Origin: Aquella oligotrophica
GTDB taxonomy: Bacteria; Pseudomonadota; Gammaproteobacteria; Burkholderiales; UBA11063
Direction: 5' to 3'
DNA length: 64,000 nt
NCBI RefSeq assembly: GCF_002892535.1
Contig: NZ_CP024847.1
Span: 682,001 to 746,000, forward strand
Shown: one piece after another, positions 11,727 to 17,346 of the stretch
Position numbering within the stretch: the first letter of the stretch is position 1
How the letters are laid out: every line of letters begins with the position of its first letter
Program-made: the position numbers and the translations under genes
The notes under the pieces: generated by a model
The model's input: only the letters and a program-made list of their open reading frames with translations
The model's database searches: none
Told to the model about the DNA's origin: nothing

Positions 11727-12080
11727 TGCTATCGATTCTTTTGAGAGCTAAATTAGCGTTATTATACGTAAAAAGCTTCAACAAAGCATCTTATTATTAG
11801 ACTTTTATCATATTAGCCATATTGGATGATAAATTATTCGCTGGTAATGATAGTCCAGTAAATTGGAGTTGGCGATGGGTAGGGGATAAACTATAATATC
11901 GCTACTGGAAAGAATCCTTGTTCTACCAGTTCCCTTCAAAATTGCCATTGGTTTTCCAGTGGCATTTTCTTTTCCTTGAGTTAAATGATAATCATTTCCG
12001 AGTATATATGTAAAACACGTGATAGGCGTTCCCAAAAATGGGAAAGCTATAATATAGTAGATAATTGTAGAATAAAGTAT
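11727..12080. other. Gap with no assignable gene
   Basis: This 354-base stretch has one 75-codon minus-strand frame (12035-11808) with a TTG-type start and no family resemblance. The plus strand shows a short WSWRWV-like run near 11865 that recalls photolyase FAD domains, but no frame continues. A TATAAT on the minus strand at 11766-11761 could serve the Rieske gene. I see no supported gene; decayed DNA beside the fold-back element is likely. Confidence 0.4.
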
Positions 12081-12225
12081 TAGACCTCTTTTCTAACCTG
12101 CTTCTTTAACTCTTATCCGTTGTCATAAAGACTTTTACGATACTCGTGTACTACGTGTACATTCCGTTTCTCAAAGGCTTTATTCCTAGTCTAAGAGCTA
12201 AATAATGGGTTATGAAAGAGGTCTA
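12081..12225 (+). repeat. Fold-back MITE-like element, copy 2
   Basis: This copy is 145 bp, the same length and orientation as copy 1, and differs from it at only a handful of positions. The outer arms read TAGACCTCTTTTCTAACC and GGGTTATGAAAGAGGTCTA. The inner arm has one mismatch (AAAGGCTTTAT against ATAAAGACTTT). It lies on the left border of the methyltransferase–kinase–receiver island. Confidence 0.88.
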
Positions 12226-12280
12226 TTGTTGTTTTCAACATCTTCCCTTTCTTACTTTGTCACATGGCAAAGTTTTCCTA

Positions 12281-12306
12281 CCGTTGTTATCCACGGCAGT
12301 TTTTTT
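12281..12306 (+). terminator. Weak terminator-like hairpin upstream of the methyltransferase gene
   Basis: CCGT and ACGG form a four-base-pair stem around TGTTATCC, followed after CAG by seven T residues. The stem is short, so termination is uncertain. It would shield the methyltransferase operon from upstream transcription. Confidence 0.3.
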
Positions 12307-12368
12307 ATTCCATTTTTAGATCATCATTTTCATGTAGTAGATTAAGTACCTAATAAAATAAGCTATTC

Positions 12369-12377
12369 TGGTATAAT
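12369..12377 (+). promoter_or_regulatory. Extended -10 promoter of the methyltransferase operon
   Basis: TGGTATAAT is a consensus extended -10 element (TGnTATAAT) 33 bases before the methyltransferase ATG. No good -35 box lies at the normal spacing. The leader would be about 25 bases and shows no clear Shine-Dalgarno sequence. Confidence 0.55.
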
Positions 12378-12409
12378 ATATTATAGAAATATTACAATTC
12401 AATTTTGCA

Positions 12410-13684
12410 ATGAAGAAAAGCGAAAATATTACATTTATTGATTTATTTGCCGGAGCTGGTGGACTTTCTGAAGGGTTCATTCAGGCTGGCTACACACCAA
12501 TTGCTCATGTGGAAATAGATTCTGCAGCATGTAAGACATTAAAAACAAGATCGTGTTATTACTATTTGCGTGAAAACCACAGATATGATGTATATTTAGA
12601 CTATCTTTCTGGAAAAATAACAAGAGATGAACTATATAACCATCTTCCAGAAAGCGAACATGCTAAGATAATTAATAGTGCAATCAGCACAGAAAATAAT
12701 GAGCAGATTTTTAGCCAGATTAATAACAGTCTTAATGGTAGGGAAGTTGATTTAATTATTGGTGGTCCGCCGTGCCAAGCTTATTCAGTTGTTGGTCGCT
12801 CACGTTCGGCAGATGGCATGCAGAATGACGCTAGGAATTATATGTATCTCGAATATGTTAAATACCTAAATTATTACAGACCCAAGATGTTTGTATTTGA
12901 AAATGTACTTGGTTTGCAGTCAGCACAGAATGGTAAATACCTTACTGATATGCAACAGAAATTTCGAAAATCAGGGTATGAAATAGAAGTTTTTAGGTTG
13001 AATGCACGTGCTTTTGGTGTGTTGCAAAACCGCGTTCGGCTGATTATTGTTGGCTGTCATATAGATGTTGGGGCAAATATTCCTGATTTAAAACAAATTA
13101 ATTTTATGACTGATAAAAAATTTCTTGTTGCTGATCTTTTTACTGATCTGCCAGCATTGCAGAATGGTGAGGGTAGTTTCAAGCGTTGTAATTATGCAAA
13201 AAACACAATAAATGAGTATTTGGTGGCTTCTGGAATACGCAGCCAAGAAGATGTATTGACTCAGCATGTTACTCGTCCACATAATGATCAGGATCTAGAA
13301 ATCTACCGTATTGCTATAACCAAGTGGTTAAGTGGTCAGCAACGTCTTGATTATGCAGATTTACCAAAACATCTAAAAACTCATAAAAATGAAACCGCAT
13401 TTACCGACCGCTTCAAGGTGGTAGGGGCAGATCTTAATGCCTCTCATACCATGGTAGCTCACATATCCAAGGATGGACACTACTATATTCATCCAGATCT
13501 TAAGCAGAATCGTTCAATTAGCATAAGGGAAGCAGCTCGGATACAGTCTTTTCCTGATAATTATTATTTTGAAGGTTATAAGAGTAACTTGGGTAGCCGG
13601 ACTGCCGCATTTCGTCAGATTGGTAATGCGGTACCGCCTTTGATGGCAAAACAGATAGCTGCAAAAATGAAAGAAATGCTATGA
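12410..13684 (+). CDS. DNA (cytosine-5) methyltransferase
   Basis: The 424-residue protein has the ordered C5-methyltransferase motifs. Motif I is AspLeuPheAlaGlyAlaGlyGly (11-18). Motif IV is GlyGlyProProCysGln with catalytic Cys122. Motif VI is GluAsnVal (164-166) and motif VIII GlnAsnArgValArg (206-210). Motifs IX-X are SerIleArgGluAlaAlaArgIleGlnSerPhePro and GlyAsnAlaValProPro near the C-terminus. An unusual insert of about 60 residues lies between motifs II and IV. The target-recognition region is about 230-370; the target sequence cannot be read off. Its stop overlaps the next start in ATGA, so it is coupled to the kinase-like gene rather than to a restriction enzyme gene. Confidence 0.95.
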   Translation: MKKSENITFIDLFAGAGGLSEGFIQAGYTPIAHVEIDSAACKTLKTRSCYYYLRENHRYDVYLDYLSGKITRDELYNHLPESEHAKIINSAISTENNEQIFSQINNSLNGREVDLIIGGPPCQAYSVVGRSRSADGMQNDARNYMYLEYVKYLNYYRPKMFVFENVLGLQSAQNGKYLTDMQQKFRKSGYEIEVFRLNARAFGVLQNRVRLIIVGCHIDVGANIPDLKQINFMTDKKFLVADLFTDLPALQNGEGSFKRCNYAKNTINEYLVASGIRSQEDVLTQHVTRPHNDQDLEIYRIAITKWLSGQQRLDYADLPKHLKTHKNETAFTDRFKVVGADLNASHTMVAHISKDGHYYIHPDLKQNRSISIREAARIQSFPDNYYFEGYKSNLGSRTAAFRQIGNAVPPLMAKQIAAKMKEML

Positions 13685-15873
13685 ATGGAATTATAAATTC
13701 AGATAAAGAAAGTGGAACAGTTTTTAAATTTAGACCATTAGCAAAACTTATTCATAGTATTGGAAGTGAGCTGATTGGTAATGCTGCAGCAGCTATTTTT
13801 GAACTTGTAAAAAATGGTTATGATGCTGATGCTAATGAGGTTAAAATTGTATTTGAATATAATGACAACGACTCTCTTAAGATTATAATTGAAGATGATG
13901 GACATGGTATGAGCTTTGATACCATCACTGGTAAATGGCTTGTACCTGCAACGGATGATAAGTTGGTTCGAAAAATAAGCCCAGATAAGCGGCGTATTAT
14001 GCAAGGGAGAAAAGGGCTGGGAAGATTTGCAGCGGCATTTCTTGGACAGGAATTGCTTATTGAAAGTTGTACTGAAGCAGAGTACAGCTCTTTTTTCATT
14101 GAATGGGACAAATTTACTTCAGAGAAATTCCTTGATGAGGTTGATATTCTGATAGAGCGTAAGGAGTCAAATCGATCACCCGGTACAAGAATCGAGATCG
14201 TGGCAATGGAAGATAAATATAAAATTTGGCAGGACAAATCCACGATTGACAAGCTAACGTTTGAATTACAACGTCTAATTTCGCCATTTTCTGATATTGT
14301 ACAAGGTGAAGGAAATAAAATTGATGAATTTAGCATTAATGTGAGTTTTATTAATTGCCCTGTTTCCGATTATTTTGGTAAGACGATTGAGATAAAGCCA
14401 AGTGAAATACTTTCTTACTATGATTATAGGATATTTGGAGTAATTGATAAAGATGGCACCGCAAGTCTAACTTATGAAAATGGTGTTGAGAGAATTACTC
14501 AAAGCGAAATAGTAACATTTAAATCTGATTTGCCAAAGTTAGATACTAATTGTGGAAAAATTTATCTGGATCTTAGAGTTTATGATCGTGATACAGAAGC
14601 GATTAACAATCTTATTGGTAAAGGATTGGTGAGTTCAGATGGTAGTCCTCTTGGTAAACGTGAGGCAAAAAAATTACTTGACCAAGTTTATGGTGTACAC
14701 TTATATCGCAATAAATTCAGGATTAGTCCATATGGTGCTGATGGCAATGATTGGCTAGAACTTGATAAGGATAGAATTCAGAATTTTACGCTTCGAGTTA
14801 GTAATAATCAGATTGCTGGTTTTGTTACAATTGAAGGTGAGGAAGATTCTAACCTAATTGAAAAAAGTGCTCGGGATGGGCTGAAAGAAAATGAGTCATA
14901 TGATGTATTGGTGAGTCAAATTAAGAAGGCTCTACATGAACTTGAGATTCGCCGGCTTGCCTATCGTCAAAAAACAAAAAGAGGAAGAAAATCTAAAATT
15001 GTAGAAGATGTTAGAGATCTTTTTAGTTTTAGGACTATAGCCGATAATATAGATAAAAAGCTAAAACAATTAAGTATTAATGACTCGGTTATAAAAGAAG
15101 TCCGGCAGATGATTGAACTTGAAGCAGTAAATAAAGGTCATCTGTTACAGGATATTGAACAGAAAATAGCTGTTTATCAAGGGCAGGCAACATTGGGTAA
15201 GATTACAACAGTTCTTTTGCATGAAGTTAGAAGACCAATACAAGTATTCAATCATGAAGCTAAAGTTATTGATTTCCAGTTAAAGAAATATGATGAAACA
15301 AAAAATTTTCAGCATATTGAAAGATTAAAAGAAAGCGGCAATAGGTTTAAAACTCAAACAAATTTTCTTTCCAAAGTTTTTAAAAGGTTTGATCCTTTTG
15401 CTTCAAATAAAAGGGGGCCAAAGAAGTTATTCCATGTCAGTAACGTATTTAATGAAATTTATGATTTTTTTGCTTCAATGTTTGAGCAAAATGAAATTGT
15501 TTATGAGTTTAACTGCCCGGAGGGGTTAAATATCTATGGATGGGAAATTGACTTATCCATATGTATGACAAATCTTATCGAAAATAGCATATATTGGCTT
15601 AATGGTACATTGAATAAAAAAATTTTTATAAATGTAATTGACGGTGATGATGGTCTGGAAATTCATTACCGCGATAATGGACCTGGAATTAAAGATAGTC
15701 TGATTGAGAGTTCTGTGATTTTTGAACCTGGATTTAGTACTAAATCAAATGGTATGGGGATTGGTCTTGCTCTAGCTGGCGAAGCTGTATCAAGATTTAA
15801 CGGAGAGCTGAAGGTATTATCCTCTTCAGAGGGTGCTTATTTTTTATTGGAGGTAAAGAATGGAAATAGTTAG
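13681..15873 (+). CDS. Double-GHKL ATPase / histidine-kinase-like protein
   Basis: The 730-residue protein has two ATP-binding GHKL modules. The N-terminal one resembles MutL/Hsp90/MORC-type ATPases: GluLeuValLysAsnGlyTyrAspAlaAsp (41-50), AspAspGlyHisGlyMet (72-77) and a lid GlyArgLysGlyLeuGlyArgPhe (109-116). The C-terminal one is histidine-kinase-like: H-box LeuHisGluValArgArgProIle with His514, N-box AsnLeuIleGluAsnSer (631-636), AspAsnGlyProGlyIle from 665 and GlyMetGlyIleGlyLeuAla near 691. No membrane segment is seen, so it should be cytosolic. Coiled-coil-like sequence precedes the H-box. It overlaps the methyltransferase gene by 4 bases and the receiver gene by 14. The N-terminal module is the natural candidate for sensing DNA or damage; this is inference. 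Confidence 0.88.
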   Translation: MNGIINSDKESGTVFKFRPLAKLIHSIGSELIGNAAAAIFELVKNGYDADANEVKIVFEYNDNDSLKIIIEDDGHGMSFDTITGKWLVPATDDKLVRKISPDKRRIMQGRKGLGRFAAAFLGQELLIESCTEAEYSSFFIEWDKFTSEKFLDEVDILIERKESNRSPGTRIEIVAMEDKYKIWQDKSTIDKLTFELQRLISPFSDIVQGEGNKIDEFSINVSFINCPVSDYFGKTIEIKPSEILSYYDYRIFGVIDKDGTASLTYENGVERITQSEIVTFKSDLPKLDTNCGKIYLDLRVYDRDTEAINNLIGKGLVSSDGSPLGKREAKKLLDQVYGVHLYRNKFRISPYGADGNDWLELDKDRIQNFTLRVSNNQIAGFVTIEGEEDSNLIEKSARDGLKENESYDVLVSQIKKALHELEIRRLAYRQKTKRGRKSKIVEDVRDLFSFRTIADNIDKKLKQLSINDSVIKEVRQMIELEAVNKGHLLQDIEQKIAVYQGQATLGKITTVLLHEVRRPIQVFNHEAKVIDFQLKKYDETKNFQHIERLKESGNRFKTQTNFLSKVFKRFDPFASNKRGPKKLFHVSNVFNEIYDFFASMFEQNEIVYEFNCPEGLNIYGWEIDLSICMTNLIENSIYWLNGTLNKKIFINVIDGDDGLEIHYRDNGPGIKDSLIESSVIFEPGFSTKSNGMGIGLALAGEAVSRFNGELKVLSSSEGAYFLLEVKNGNS

Positions 15874-16984
15874 GGTACTTTTAGTGGATGATCAAAGAGA
15901 GTTGGCCAGTGAATATAAAGAAGCTGCTGAGATGTTTTGCGATGAGAATCAGCTTGATTGTCAATTAATGGTTACTCAAGAAGTAGATGTCGATTCTGCT
16001 ATAAAGAGACTTTCTGATTTAAACGAAGTGTTTGACATTGCGATTATAGATCTCACTTTATCCAGAGGAGCGGATAGAGATACCAATAACGGGAATAAAG
16101 TAATTGAAATTCTACAAAAGCATACAAGACTGCCGATTATTGTTGCCACATCAACCCCGGGAGAAATTGACTCTAATTATACACAAAGTTGTTTTTTAAA
16201 AGTAATTACCAAGGATCAATTCGGGAATAATAATACTCATATCATCGAAACAATATTTAAAATCTATAATACGGGGATTACCAAGATATTAAATAAAAAA
16301 GGTAAAATTGAAGAGTGCCTTAATAATTTGTTTTGGAGCCATTTTTCGCGGGTTTTTGAATCTTGGATTGACTGCAAATATGAGCAGTCACCAGAGGAAA
16401 AGGAATCATCACTTCTAAGGAGCGTTTTTTTTCATATTAATGAGTATATAGATCAGTCAGTAAAAATATATAATCCCAACGAGTTTTACATCTATCCTCC
16501 TGTAAAAAAATACTTGTCTTCTGGAGATATTGTCAGCCATAGTAATTTTTTGTTTATAGTTATGACTCCTGCTTGTAGTATTGAGCCTCGAGAACAAGGT
16601 CAAATAAACGCAGAACATATAGTTTTTGCTGGAATTGATTTACTTAGTAAATTCGTTGACGTTTCTTCATTAAATTCTAAAACCGGATCAAATAATAAAA
16701 ATAGAACAAAGTTGGAAAATTTTTTAAAAAACAAAAAGCAGGAATACTATTTTTTACCAAAATTTCATACAATTGAAGCTAGTTTAATAAATTTTGAAAA
16801 AATCTACCATTTATCAACTGAAAGTGTAAATAAATTGCTTGAGAATGGACGCTTGGTACGGGTAGCAACCATTTCAGCGCCTTTTATTAAAGATATTATT
16901 GAAAAATATTCAGCTTATTATTCAAGGCAGGGGGCACCTGATTTTGATACAGGTAAGTTATATATGCAACTAACATCACACTAA
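15860..16984 (+). CDS. Receiver-domain protein with large unassigned C-terminal domain
   Basis: The 374-residue protein begins with a response-regulator receiver domain (about 4-135): acidic pair Asp10-Asp11, phosphoacceptor Asp64 in IleIleAspLeuThrLeu, a Ser/Thr stretch near 97-99, and Lys118. The remaining 235 residues have no helix-turn-helix that I recognise. They contain PheIleValMetThrProAlaCysSerIleGluPro, TyrTyrPheLeuPro and, near the end, ThrIleSerAlaProPheIleLysAspIle...TyrSerAlaTyrTyrSerArgGlnGlyAlaProAsp. It is the likely phosphotransfer partner of the preceding kinase-like protein. The C-terminus could be the effector of the system; no nuclease motif is evident. Confidence 0.82.
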   Translation: MEIVRVLLVDDQRELASEYKEAAEMFCDENQLDCQLMVTQEVDVDSAIKRLSDLNEVFDIAIIDLTLSRGADRDTNNGNKVIEILQKHTRLPIIVATSTPGEIDSNYTQSCFLKVITKDQFGNNNTHIIETIFKIYNTGITKILNKKGKIEECLNNLFWSHFSRVFESWIDCKYEQSPEEKESSLLRSVFFHINEYIDQSVKIYNPNEFYIYPPVKKYLSSGDIVSHSNFLFIVMTPACSIEPREQGQINAEHIVFAGIDLLSKFVDVSSLNSKTGSNNKNRTKLENFLKNKKQEYYFLPKFHTIEASLINFEKIYHLSTESVNKLLENGRLVRVATISAPFIKDIIEKYSAYYSRQGAPDFDTGKLYMQLTSH

Positions 16985-17089
16985 TAAGATTATCGCATAT
17001 ATTAAATTTTTCACATAAAGTCATGATTTCGATATAACTACCAGCGGTAATTCAAAAGTTTTAACCACTAGTGGTCGATAAGCCGTTTC

Positions 17090-17293
17090 TCAAGTTACTA
17101 GTCTTTTTACCAAGTCATAGTTATAACTTTGAGATTTCAAATCTTGATGTAGCCGCATCAATGAGCTATGACTAATACAAAACATTCGGGGAGAGTCTGT
17201 CCAACACTCAAGTACTGATGTATTGAACTCCCAGTTCCACTCATAAACTTCAAAAAATTTACAGTTATGAAAGCACAGATACTGATCTATCTT
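17090..17293 (-). pseudogene. Possible gene remnant downstream of the receiver gene
   Basis: Within a 411-base gap, the minus strand is open for 67 codons without an ATG. The predicted sequence is rich in Trp, Cys and His (for example ValTyrGluTrpAsnTrpGluPheAsn and LeuGluCysTrpThrAsp), with a protein-like composition. I do not recognise the family. It could be the tail of a decayed gene at the right border of the island or a chance open frame. The rest of the gap shows only the operator at 17347-17360. Confidence 0.22.
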
Positions 17294-17346
17294 TTATAAA
17301 CTAAACATAAATATCCACAAAACCCTACCAATTGATTAAAATACTG

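Follow-up and report, generated by a model that had tools for sequence, protein, structure and literature searches.

What would a cell gain from placing a DNA methyltransferase, a histidine kinase and a receiver protein under one roof? The question is raised by three overlapping genes of Aquella oligotrophica, found in the 64,000-nucleotide stretch of contig NZ_CP024847.1 (positions 682,001 to 746,000) that was analysed here as a whole and is called the window. Three intact open reading frames (ORFs) of 424, 730 and 374 amino acids (aa) encode a C5 DNA methyltransferase, a kinase with two GHKL ATPase modules and a receiver-domain protein (Table 1). A sequence-only reading had taken this trio for an undescribed defence or epigenetic signalling system. 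We find that the three genes are a conserved, co-inherited unit, that the architecture has already been published, and that the window trio, as judged from sequence comparison, is a compact sister form of it, likely serving in defence.

Table 1. Features of the locus, in window coordinates
Feature	Position	Strand	Basis
C5-cytosine DNA methyltransferase, 424 aa	12410-13684	+	Pfam DNA_methylase 2e-59; PADLOC DrmMII PDLC02649 1.2e-167
Double-GHKL histidine kinase, 730 aa	13681-15873	+	Pfam, profile matches, residue counts over 69 sequences
Receiver protein, 374 aa	15860-16984	+	Profile match to ArlR receiver 1.4e-8; conservation
Extended -10 promoter-like sequence TGGTATAAT	12369-12377	+	Read in sequence; ~32 bases 5' of first ATG; no -35 seen
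Segment replaced by other cargo in nearest relative G019	11816-17303	.	blastn of L102 against window; bounds from flank alignment

Conservation and co-inheritance of the three genes

Relatives were gathered as 76 loci (L002-L077), 72 from a contig scan with a receiver alignment and four from plasmids; since all were found via the receiver, they are not a census. A kinase match and a receiver stand side by side in 72 loci (in L041 and L050 with the kinase in pieces), and 60 of these 72 also have a homologous C5 methyltransferase within reach: upstream on the same strand in 45, downstream on the same strand in 8, downstream and converging in 6, and upstream and divergent in 1. Among the other 12 adjacent pairs, the contig ends in 5 and no methyltransferase is in reach in 7. 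The four loci without adjacency are L065, with a broken kinase, and L071, L072 and L076, whose receivers were detected by tblastn but scored under the phmmer threshold. Near copies (L026/L033, 99.7%; L005/L066; L027/L035) are retained in the counts, and the sole archaeal locus (L023) is a metagenome bin. With all three genes in 60 of 76 loci, the trio is conserved in other genomes.

The proteins have also diverged together. Over 52 complete sets, restricted to loci in which each of the three proteins is full-length, divergence correlates between methyltransferase and kinase (rho 0.44), kinase and receiver (0.77), and methyltransferase and receiver (0.46), values that none of 1000 permutations reached. 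Furthermore, a search of 398 genomes of the window's phylum with the C-terminal output domain of the receiver gave six matches, namely the window, three other compact loci, two of which are independent since L114 is the same as L044, and two loci of the long type discussed below. L116 holds a complete trio; in L115, a Vsr gene and a 399-aa ORF separate the kinase-receiver pair from a distant C5 methyltransferase (1.3e-17) that is encoded on the other strand.

The gene order of the window agrees with that first described: methyltransferase and kinase genes overlap by 4 bases (13681-13684), and kinase and receiver genes by 14 (15860-15873). The single extended -10 promoter proposed with it stands as a sequence, TGGTATAAT; as a promoter it is only plausible, because consensus matches in the region do not exceed those in shuffles (22 versus 26.4 +/- 5.2) and because TGGTATAAT, having no -35, is missing from the consensus-scan list.

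The methyltransferase and the double-GHKL kinase

The methyltransferase, whose identity the Pfam match confirms, is the sole C5 methyltransferase detected in its one-contig genome of 2.82 Mb, both DNA_methylase matches falling in the 12410-13684 gene. It departs from its relatives at 1 of 97 positions kept in at least 90% of them.

The kinase carries the Pfam domains HATPase_c_3 (1.7e-21, residues 37-149) and HATPase_c (1.9e-18, residues 623-726). Its order is an N-terminal GHKL module of MORC/MutL type, a middle region, a dimerisation and phosphoacceptor helix with His514, and the C-terminal HATPase_c module. Both nucleotide-binding modules are strictly conserved in the 69-row kinase alignment, which omits L053 (a near copy of L052) and the short kinases L025, L032, L038, L041, L050, L065 and L073. 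E41, D72, G74, G76 and K111 of the first module are invariant in all 69 rows (N45 in 68), as are N631, N635, D665, G667, G693 and G695 of the second. His514 is likewise invariant (69/69) and is followed at position 515 by Glu in 68 rows and Asp in one. The profile built from these sequences matches the histidine-kinase core of ThkA (1.9e-28, profile positions 490-718), and its N-terminal part matches MutL and Hsp90; thus, the two GHKL modules and the histidine-kinase H-box read from the sequence at the outset were correctly recognised. In paraMORC/MORC ATPases an S5 domain comes next to the GHKL domain on its C-terminal side; Pfam matched no S5 family in the kinase. The window kinase departs from its relatives at 2 of 100 positions kept in at least 90%.

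The receiver and its output domain

The receiver domain (residues ~1-138) has Asp10, Asp11, Asp64, Thr97 and Lys118. On its own, the window protein is below threshold for Pfam Response_reg (E 0.049), a family matched by 44 of the 70 aligned receivers at E <= 0.05, and the 70-sequence profile matches solved receivers (ArlR, 1.4e-8). Asp64 is kept in 69 of 70 rows, the remaining row having a gap there, so that a receiver domain with this phosphoacceptor is confirmed. The alignment leaves out L053, the short L021, L065 and L069, and L071, L072 and L076, which phmmer had missed.

The remaining 235 residues (~140-374) form an output domain of no recognised fold. Its alignment has 61 rows; in addition to the omissions above, it excludes the four plasmid loci (L002-L005) and five distant ones (L068, L070, L073, L074 and L075). 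R187, E208 and C239 occur in 61/61 rows, Y210 in 59/61, and Asp240, R356, Q357, G358 and P360 each in 60/61. The window displays the motifs P237-x-C239 and R356-Q357-G358-x-P360, and K344 and D345 also belong to the conserved polar set. This constellation (R187, E208, Y210, C239, D240, K344, D345, R356 and Q357) could represent a candidate active site. The domain with its R, E, Y, P-x-C-D, K-D and R-Q-G residues was met here only behind this receiver: in the 398 genomes its profile matched receiver-type proteins only (6 of 398 genomes), and a copy fused to other parts or standing alone was not found.

A hidden nuclease of a known family in the receiver was considered and rejected, none being matched by Pfam, NCBIfam, PADLOC or profiles of solved structures; a lone HinfI-family match (0.0036) in one of the 61 output-domain members looks like chance. 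A nuclease of an unrecognised type within the output domain is possible.

A compact sister of a published architecture

As far as the available passages of their paper go, Bellieny-Rabelo, Pretorius and Moleleki described in 2021 receiver-like Response_reg_2 (PF19192) and kinase-like HEF_HK (PF19191) proteins that are linked in 91.6% over 644 regions, in which compact members are possibly included or not (PMC8011034). The same passages give HATPase_c_3 + HEF_HK + HATPase_c as the commonest kinase architecture and report C5 methylases upstream, frequent Vsr genes, a linkage to restriction-modification and, for one such locus, transcriptional activation in potato tubers. The authors proposed a possible two-component system tied to restriction-modification and paraMORC ATPases; it was not called defence there, and its function was untested (PMC8011034). 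The term HEF_HK also occurs in one further paper, PMC10663231. In the open-licence PMC literature, PMC8011034 is the sole paper that we found on the trio, and no functional test of the trio was found. The label 'undescribed' is therefore not borne out, since the 2021 paper already reports both the architecture and its association with C5 methylases, Vsr and restriction-modification genes. The sequence-only reading had itself named, as evidence against its proposal, an already described defence system composed of these three parts; at the level of architecture, such a match exists (PMC8011034).

The window proteins have no match to PF19191 or PF19192 at E <= 1, the kinases and receivers of four plasmid relatives have none at E <= 10, and none of the 70 receivers matches PF19192 at E <= 0.05. 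For comparison, 299 genomes of the window's phylum yielded eight loci with PF19192, one in each of 8 genomes. In all eight, the kinase ORF is 993-1078 aa long, the receiver ORF (longest ORF) 567-721 aa, and a C5 methyltransferase is nearby. The alignment of the window kinase family with the long-form kinases covers almost their whole length (hhalign E 7.6e-62, 679 columns). The receivers align in the output domain only (profile-profile, 136 columns, E 1.4e-8, probability 95.5%), the receiver halves remaining unaligned in the profile comparison. The output domain of the long form has Cys-Asp in 8/8 sequences, Pro two residues before in 5/8 and a final R-x-G in 7/8. The two groups share a C5 methylase, a kinase composed of HATPase_c_3, phosphoacceptor and HATPase_c, a receiver protein and Vsr companions, whereas the window branch is compact (730 + 374 aa versus about 1000 + 590, the longest receiver ORFs spanning 567-721). 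The features of the locus type are present as well: a kinase with His followed by Glu/Asp, an adjacent receiver with a phosphoacceptor Asp, and a linked C5 methylase that is usually upstream. In a quick kinase tree, to which a long-branch warning applies, the long and compact branches separate (SH-aLRT, the Shimodaira-Hasegawa-like approximate likelihood-ratio test, 100). Since profile comparisons link the kinases and the output domains and the kinase tree separates the branches, we regard the window trio as a compact sister of the published system.

Near one long-type locus, a 1067-aa ORF (L092 1105-4308) weakly matches the receiver (1.2e-06) and kinase (7.8e-11) profiles; it may be an ordinary hybrid kinase.

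Mobility and defence-gene neighbourhood

The trio is sporadic and mobile. Among 23 genomes of the genus, only the window's own has the receiver, and it is in 0 of 77 others sampled from the order. The nearest relative, G019, has flanks 94-96% identical to the window up to 11815 and from 17304, and carries in between ~7 kb of other cargo (L102 4267-11331) with PDDEXK_4 nuclease, SIR2, WYL, DUF4116 and phosphoesterase genes; two short remnants (12028-12075 and 12226-12309) are still common to both. The site, a small variable locus, adjoins a Rieske-type gene and a short-chain dehydrogenase. Moreover, 41 conjugative plasmids of Campylobacter carry a receiver homologue, together with the rest of the trio in the one inspected, L005; three further plasmid-collection records also have such a homologue, one of them perhaps a chromosome because it is 2.1 Mb long. 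Two IMG/VR viral contigs (L103 4582-9562 and L113 905-5654), from putative phages, carry the complete trio, one with Vsr; phage records gave no match. The kinase tree groups the window kinase with Bacteroidota, in a 14-row set (12 Bacteroidota, one Psychrobacter and the window kinase; support 99), but its origin is uncertain because it is on a long branch.

The immediate neighbours of the units, 137 genes, comprise 24 Vsr, 5 HhH-GPD and 3 HaeIII-type restriction enzymes, and also ResIII, N6_Mtase, HNH_2 and AIPR, among the first 25 of 101 families. Vsr, which mends deamination of 5-methylcytosine, is matched by 24/137 neighbours versus 0/137 control genes, a random draw from 20 genome stretches belonging to the window's phylum, and lies somewhere within 29 of the 76 loci. 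PADLOC models matched number 356 for the neighbours versus 14 for the 137 controls (models, not genes), a ratio inflated because one gene can match dozens of models and because the 137 neighbours include two methyltransferases of the units themselves (L071, L072). For mad2, the model seen most often in the controls, the count is 4 control genes versus 5 neighbours. Ten neighbours, mostly large, were picked by hand: seven have a defence protein as match at E <= 1e-8 (type IV and type III restriction enzymes, a pAgo-like protein, a CARF-kinase-ATPase, MzaE, PglX and a type I methyltransferase), and three (L016, L007, L020) have no defence match. The search of defence islands suggested along with the first description of the locus thus yields neighbours of the relatives that are rich in defence genes, versus few in the control set.

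Three loci (L061, L063 and L067) have two extra genes directly in front of kinase, receiver and methyltransferase: one for another C5 methyltransferase (351 aa) and one of ~318 aa. The ~318-aa gene is probably the RE_HaeIII matched by three neighbours, and these Gram-positive and Haemophilus hosts seem to carry an entire type II system alongside the trio.

Comparison with known systems

DISARM systems have the DrmA helicase, DrmB (DUF1998/MZB) and DrmC beside a methyltransferase; MZB (PF09369) we take to be the Pfam equivalent of DrmB. The window methyltransferase scores 556 bits with the DrmMII model PDLC02649, and no other DISARM part was found. Membership in DISARM was rejected, there being no PADLOC match among ten neighbours of the trio and no MZB in the genome; the high score may mislead automated annotation into DISARM calls. 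With type II restriction-modification systems (BbrUII/HgiDII) the locus has in common the C5 methyltransferase and a resemblance in the N-terminal GHKL region (6.6e-21). Unlike those enzymes, the window kinase is far below the family cut-off (74.5 versus 550 bits) and its match is limited to residues 24-181; a second match, to PADLOC REase_II (8.4e-14), is likewise confined to the N-terminal GHKL region. These GHKL-only matches aside, no nuclease family was found in the three proteins, nor in the ten neighbours by PADLOC, so the unit has no separate endonuclease gene and, as first described, no visible nuclease motif.

Relatives of the N-terminal module are found within restriction loci, according to the available text of Iyer et al. 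2008 (PMC2292703). An N-terminal GHKL with intact motifs, DNA methylase and Vsr neighbours and a wide, sporadic spread are features in common with the paraMORC/MORC ATPases in that text, in which 'receiver' and 'response regulator' occur 0 times (PMC2292703). The window kinase differs from the paraMORC/MORC proteins of restriction-modification loci in joining this module to a histidine-kinase core and in having a receiver as partner. VcSduA, a paraMORC3-like protein with GHKL and nuclease, protects against phages, as stated in the available part of PMC12137116; because this tested relative does so, a defence role is plausible, though not thereby shown for the trio. Detocs is likewise a three-gene defence system based on two-component signalling, likened here by description and not by sequence. 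It degrades ATP and is best known with a PNP effector, and the available passages mention no methyltransferase (PMC11249213).

Possible functions of the unit

What the trio may do can be put as five proposed steps. The C5 methyltransferase, a member of a well-defined enzyme family, would mark the cell's own DNA at a target sequence. The MORC/MutL-like GHKL module, thought to manipulate DNA in relatives, may then engage unmarked or otherwise abnormal DNA. Closure driven by nucleotide would put the second GHKL module onto the dimerisation helix and lead to autophosphorylation of His514, for which the motifs are present. The phosphate would move to Asp64 of the receiver, and the phosphorylated receiver would free or assemble its output domain, an effector that might attack the invader or stop the cell. 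The logic would be that of restriction-modification with a two-component relay inserted between recognition and effector, comparable to Detocs. We favour defence because the unit is conserved, its His and ATP sites are kept, its context is one of defence and mobility, Vsr is present in 29 of 76 loci and its kin are paraMORC proteins. That the trio is a mobile, methylation-licensed, phosphorelay-driven defence system in compact form has, on this comparative evidence, about an even chance of being right. A more specific and more tentative version, somewhat doubtful at present, is phosphorelay-split immunity, in which the MORC-kinase reads the absence of C5 methylation and His-Asp transfer activates a new type of effector domain. 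The interpretation first given to the locus, a kinase that senses unmodified or invading DNA and passes a phosphate to an effector, agrees with the conserved unit, the kept phosphorelay residues, the defence neighbours and the lack of an endonuclease gene in the unit. Its claim to be undescribed falls away, and the sensing of unmodified DNA, the phosphotransfer and the effector role of the receiver are still inferred.

Several observations weigh against defence, or at least against defence in the window. No family of known function, known effector or DNA-binding domain was matched by the output domain in Pfam and other profile libraries. The neighbour comparison is rough, its controls coming from the window's phylum and its neighbours from many phyla, and its ratio is inflated. 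The window's own ten neighbours yielded no PADLOC match and no defence gene, and Vsr is absent from its genome. Because defence islands also carry regulators, context alone cannot tell an effector from a regulator. In 7 of 76 loci no homologous methyltransferase is in reach, so that methylation is maybe not needed everywhere, or another methyltransferase serves. Finally, the window receiver has Ser240 where 69/69 other aligned relatives have Asp.

Some of these points lead to the alternative of a regulatory two-component system, much as Bellieny-Rabelo et al. 2021 suggested, in which a cytosolic signal (the state of DNA or a nucleotide level) controls the methyltransferase and neighbouring restriction genes and the output domain binds DNA or the methyltransferase. 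Response regulators are typically built from a receiver followed by an output domain, the seven loci without a homologous methyltransferase of their own fit such a role, and the available passages on the long form point the same way with the restriction-modification linkage and the activation in potato tubers (PMC8011034). However, the output domain has no recognisable DNA-binding domain and its conserved polar residues could form an active site; moreover, the trio moves as a unit among hosts and neighbourhoods that are unrelated, which a regulator with fixed targets in its host would not do. We consider regulation unlikely, yet a serious possibility.

The substitution at position 240 poses a separate question that overlaps all readings, namely whether the window copy is decayed or altered, its receiver lacking the output of the family. 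The Asp replaced by Ser240 is that of 69/69 aligned members, and it is also kept in 8/8 receivers of the long branch, so the window copy may work differently from its relatives or fail at the last step. Against this, 19 of the 20 receiver positions conserved at 90% or more are retained, Ser240 being the only departure, and just 2/100 kinase and 1/97 methyltransferase positions differ. Judged against the kinase, divergence of the output domain is not accelerated (mean residual +0.009, rank 37 of 52), and pseudogene-like decay of the receiver was rejected since its rate is not raised. An altered or decayed copy is rather unlikely.

A selfish addiction module is a further alternative: on loss of the methyltransferase, unmarked host DNA would be sensed by the kinase and punished by the receiver, and carriers would be retained. 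Such a module would suit the 41 conjugative Campylobacter plasmids with the receiver homologue (and the whole trio in L005), the exchangeable chromosomal site and the Vsr companions. It is, however, a mechanistic cousin of defence rather than a distinct reading, and many defence genes are found among the neighbours. Two decayed loci bear on it. L065 (1482-11266, Streptococcus cristatus) has kinase and receiver in pieces, a further kinase-like piece ~5 kb away and an intact methyltransferase, while L046 has the methyltransferase in two pieces and the other two genes intact. Because L065 keeps the methyltransferase while L046 keeps kinase and receiver, the order of decay gives addiction no clear support, and its use as a sign of toxicity was rejected, the cases being too few and mixed. 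Addiction thus appears decidedly improbable. Least probable is a methylation auxiliary without attack, in which the MORC-like kinase and the receiver would direct repair of the Vsr type, or the organisation of the chromosome, to methylated sites: Vsr in 29/76 loci and glycosylase-type HhH-GPD genes among 5/137 immediate neighbours would fit it, but 47/76 loci have no Vsr in the fetched DNA (some contigs being short), the window's genome has none, and mobility and defence neighbours are left unexplained.

Implications

In eukaryotes, MORC ATPases help to silence genes and transposons, and their origin is commonly sought in restriction loci of bacteria; we know of no account of what most of their bacterial kin sense and trigger. 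Because the trio wires a MORC-like module to a measurable phosphorelay, the question becomes testable with a small set of three genes (424 + 730 + 374 aa). Should the unit be regulatory, a group of loci amid defence genes needs another explanation. Should the defence reading hold, methylation-gated signalling joins the list of immune logics; and if the phosphorelay-split version is true, it would represent methylation-gated two-component immunity, tying bacterial MORC ATPases to signalling.

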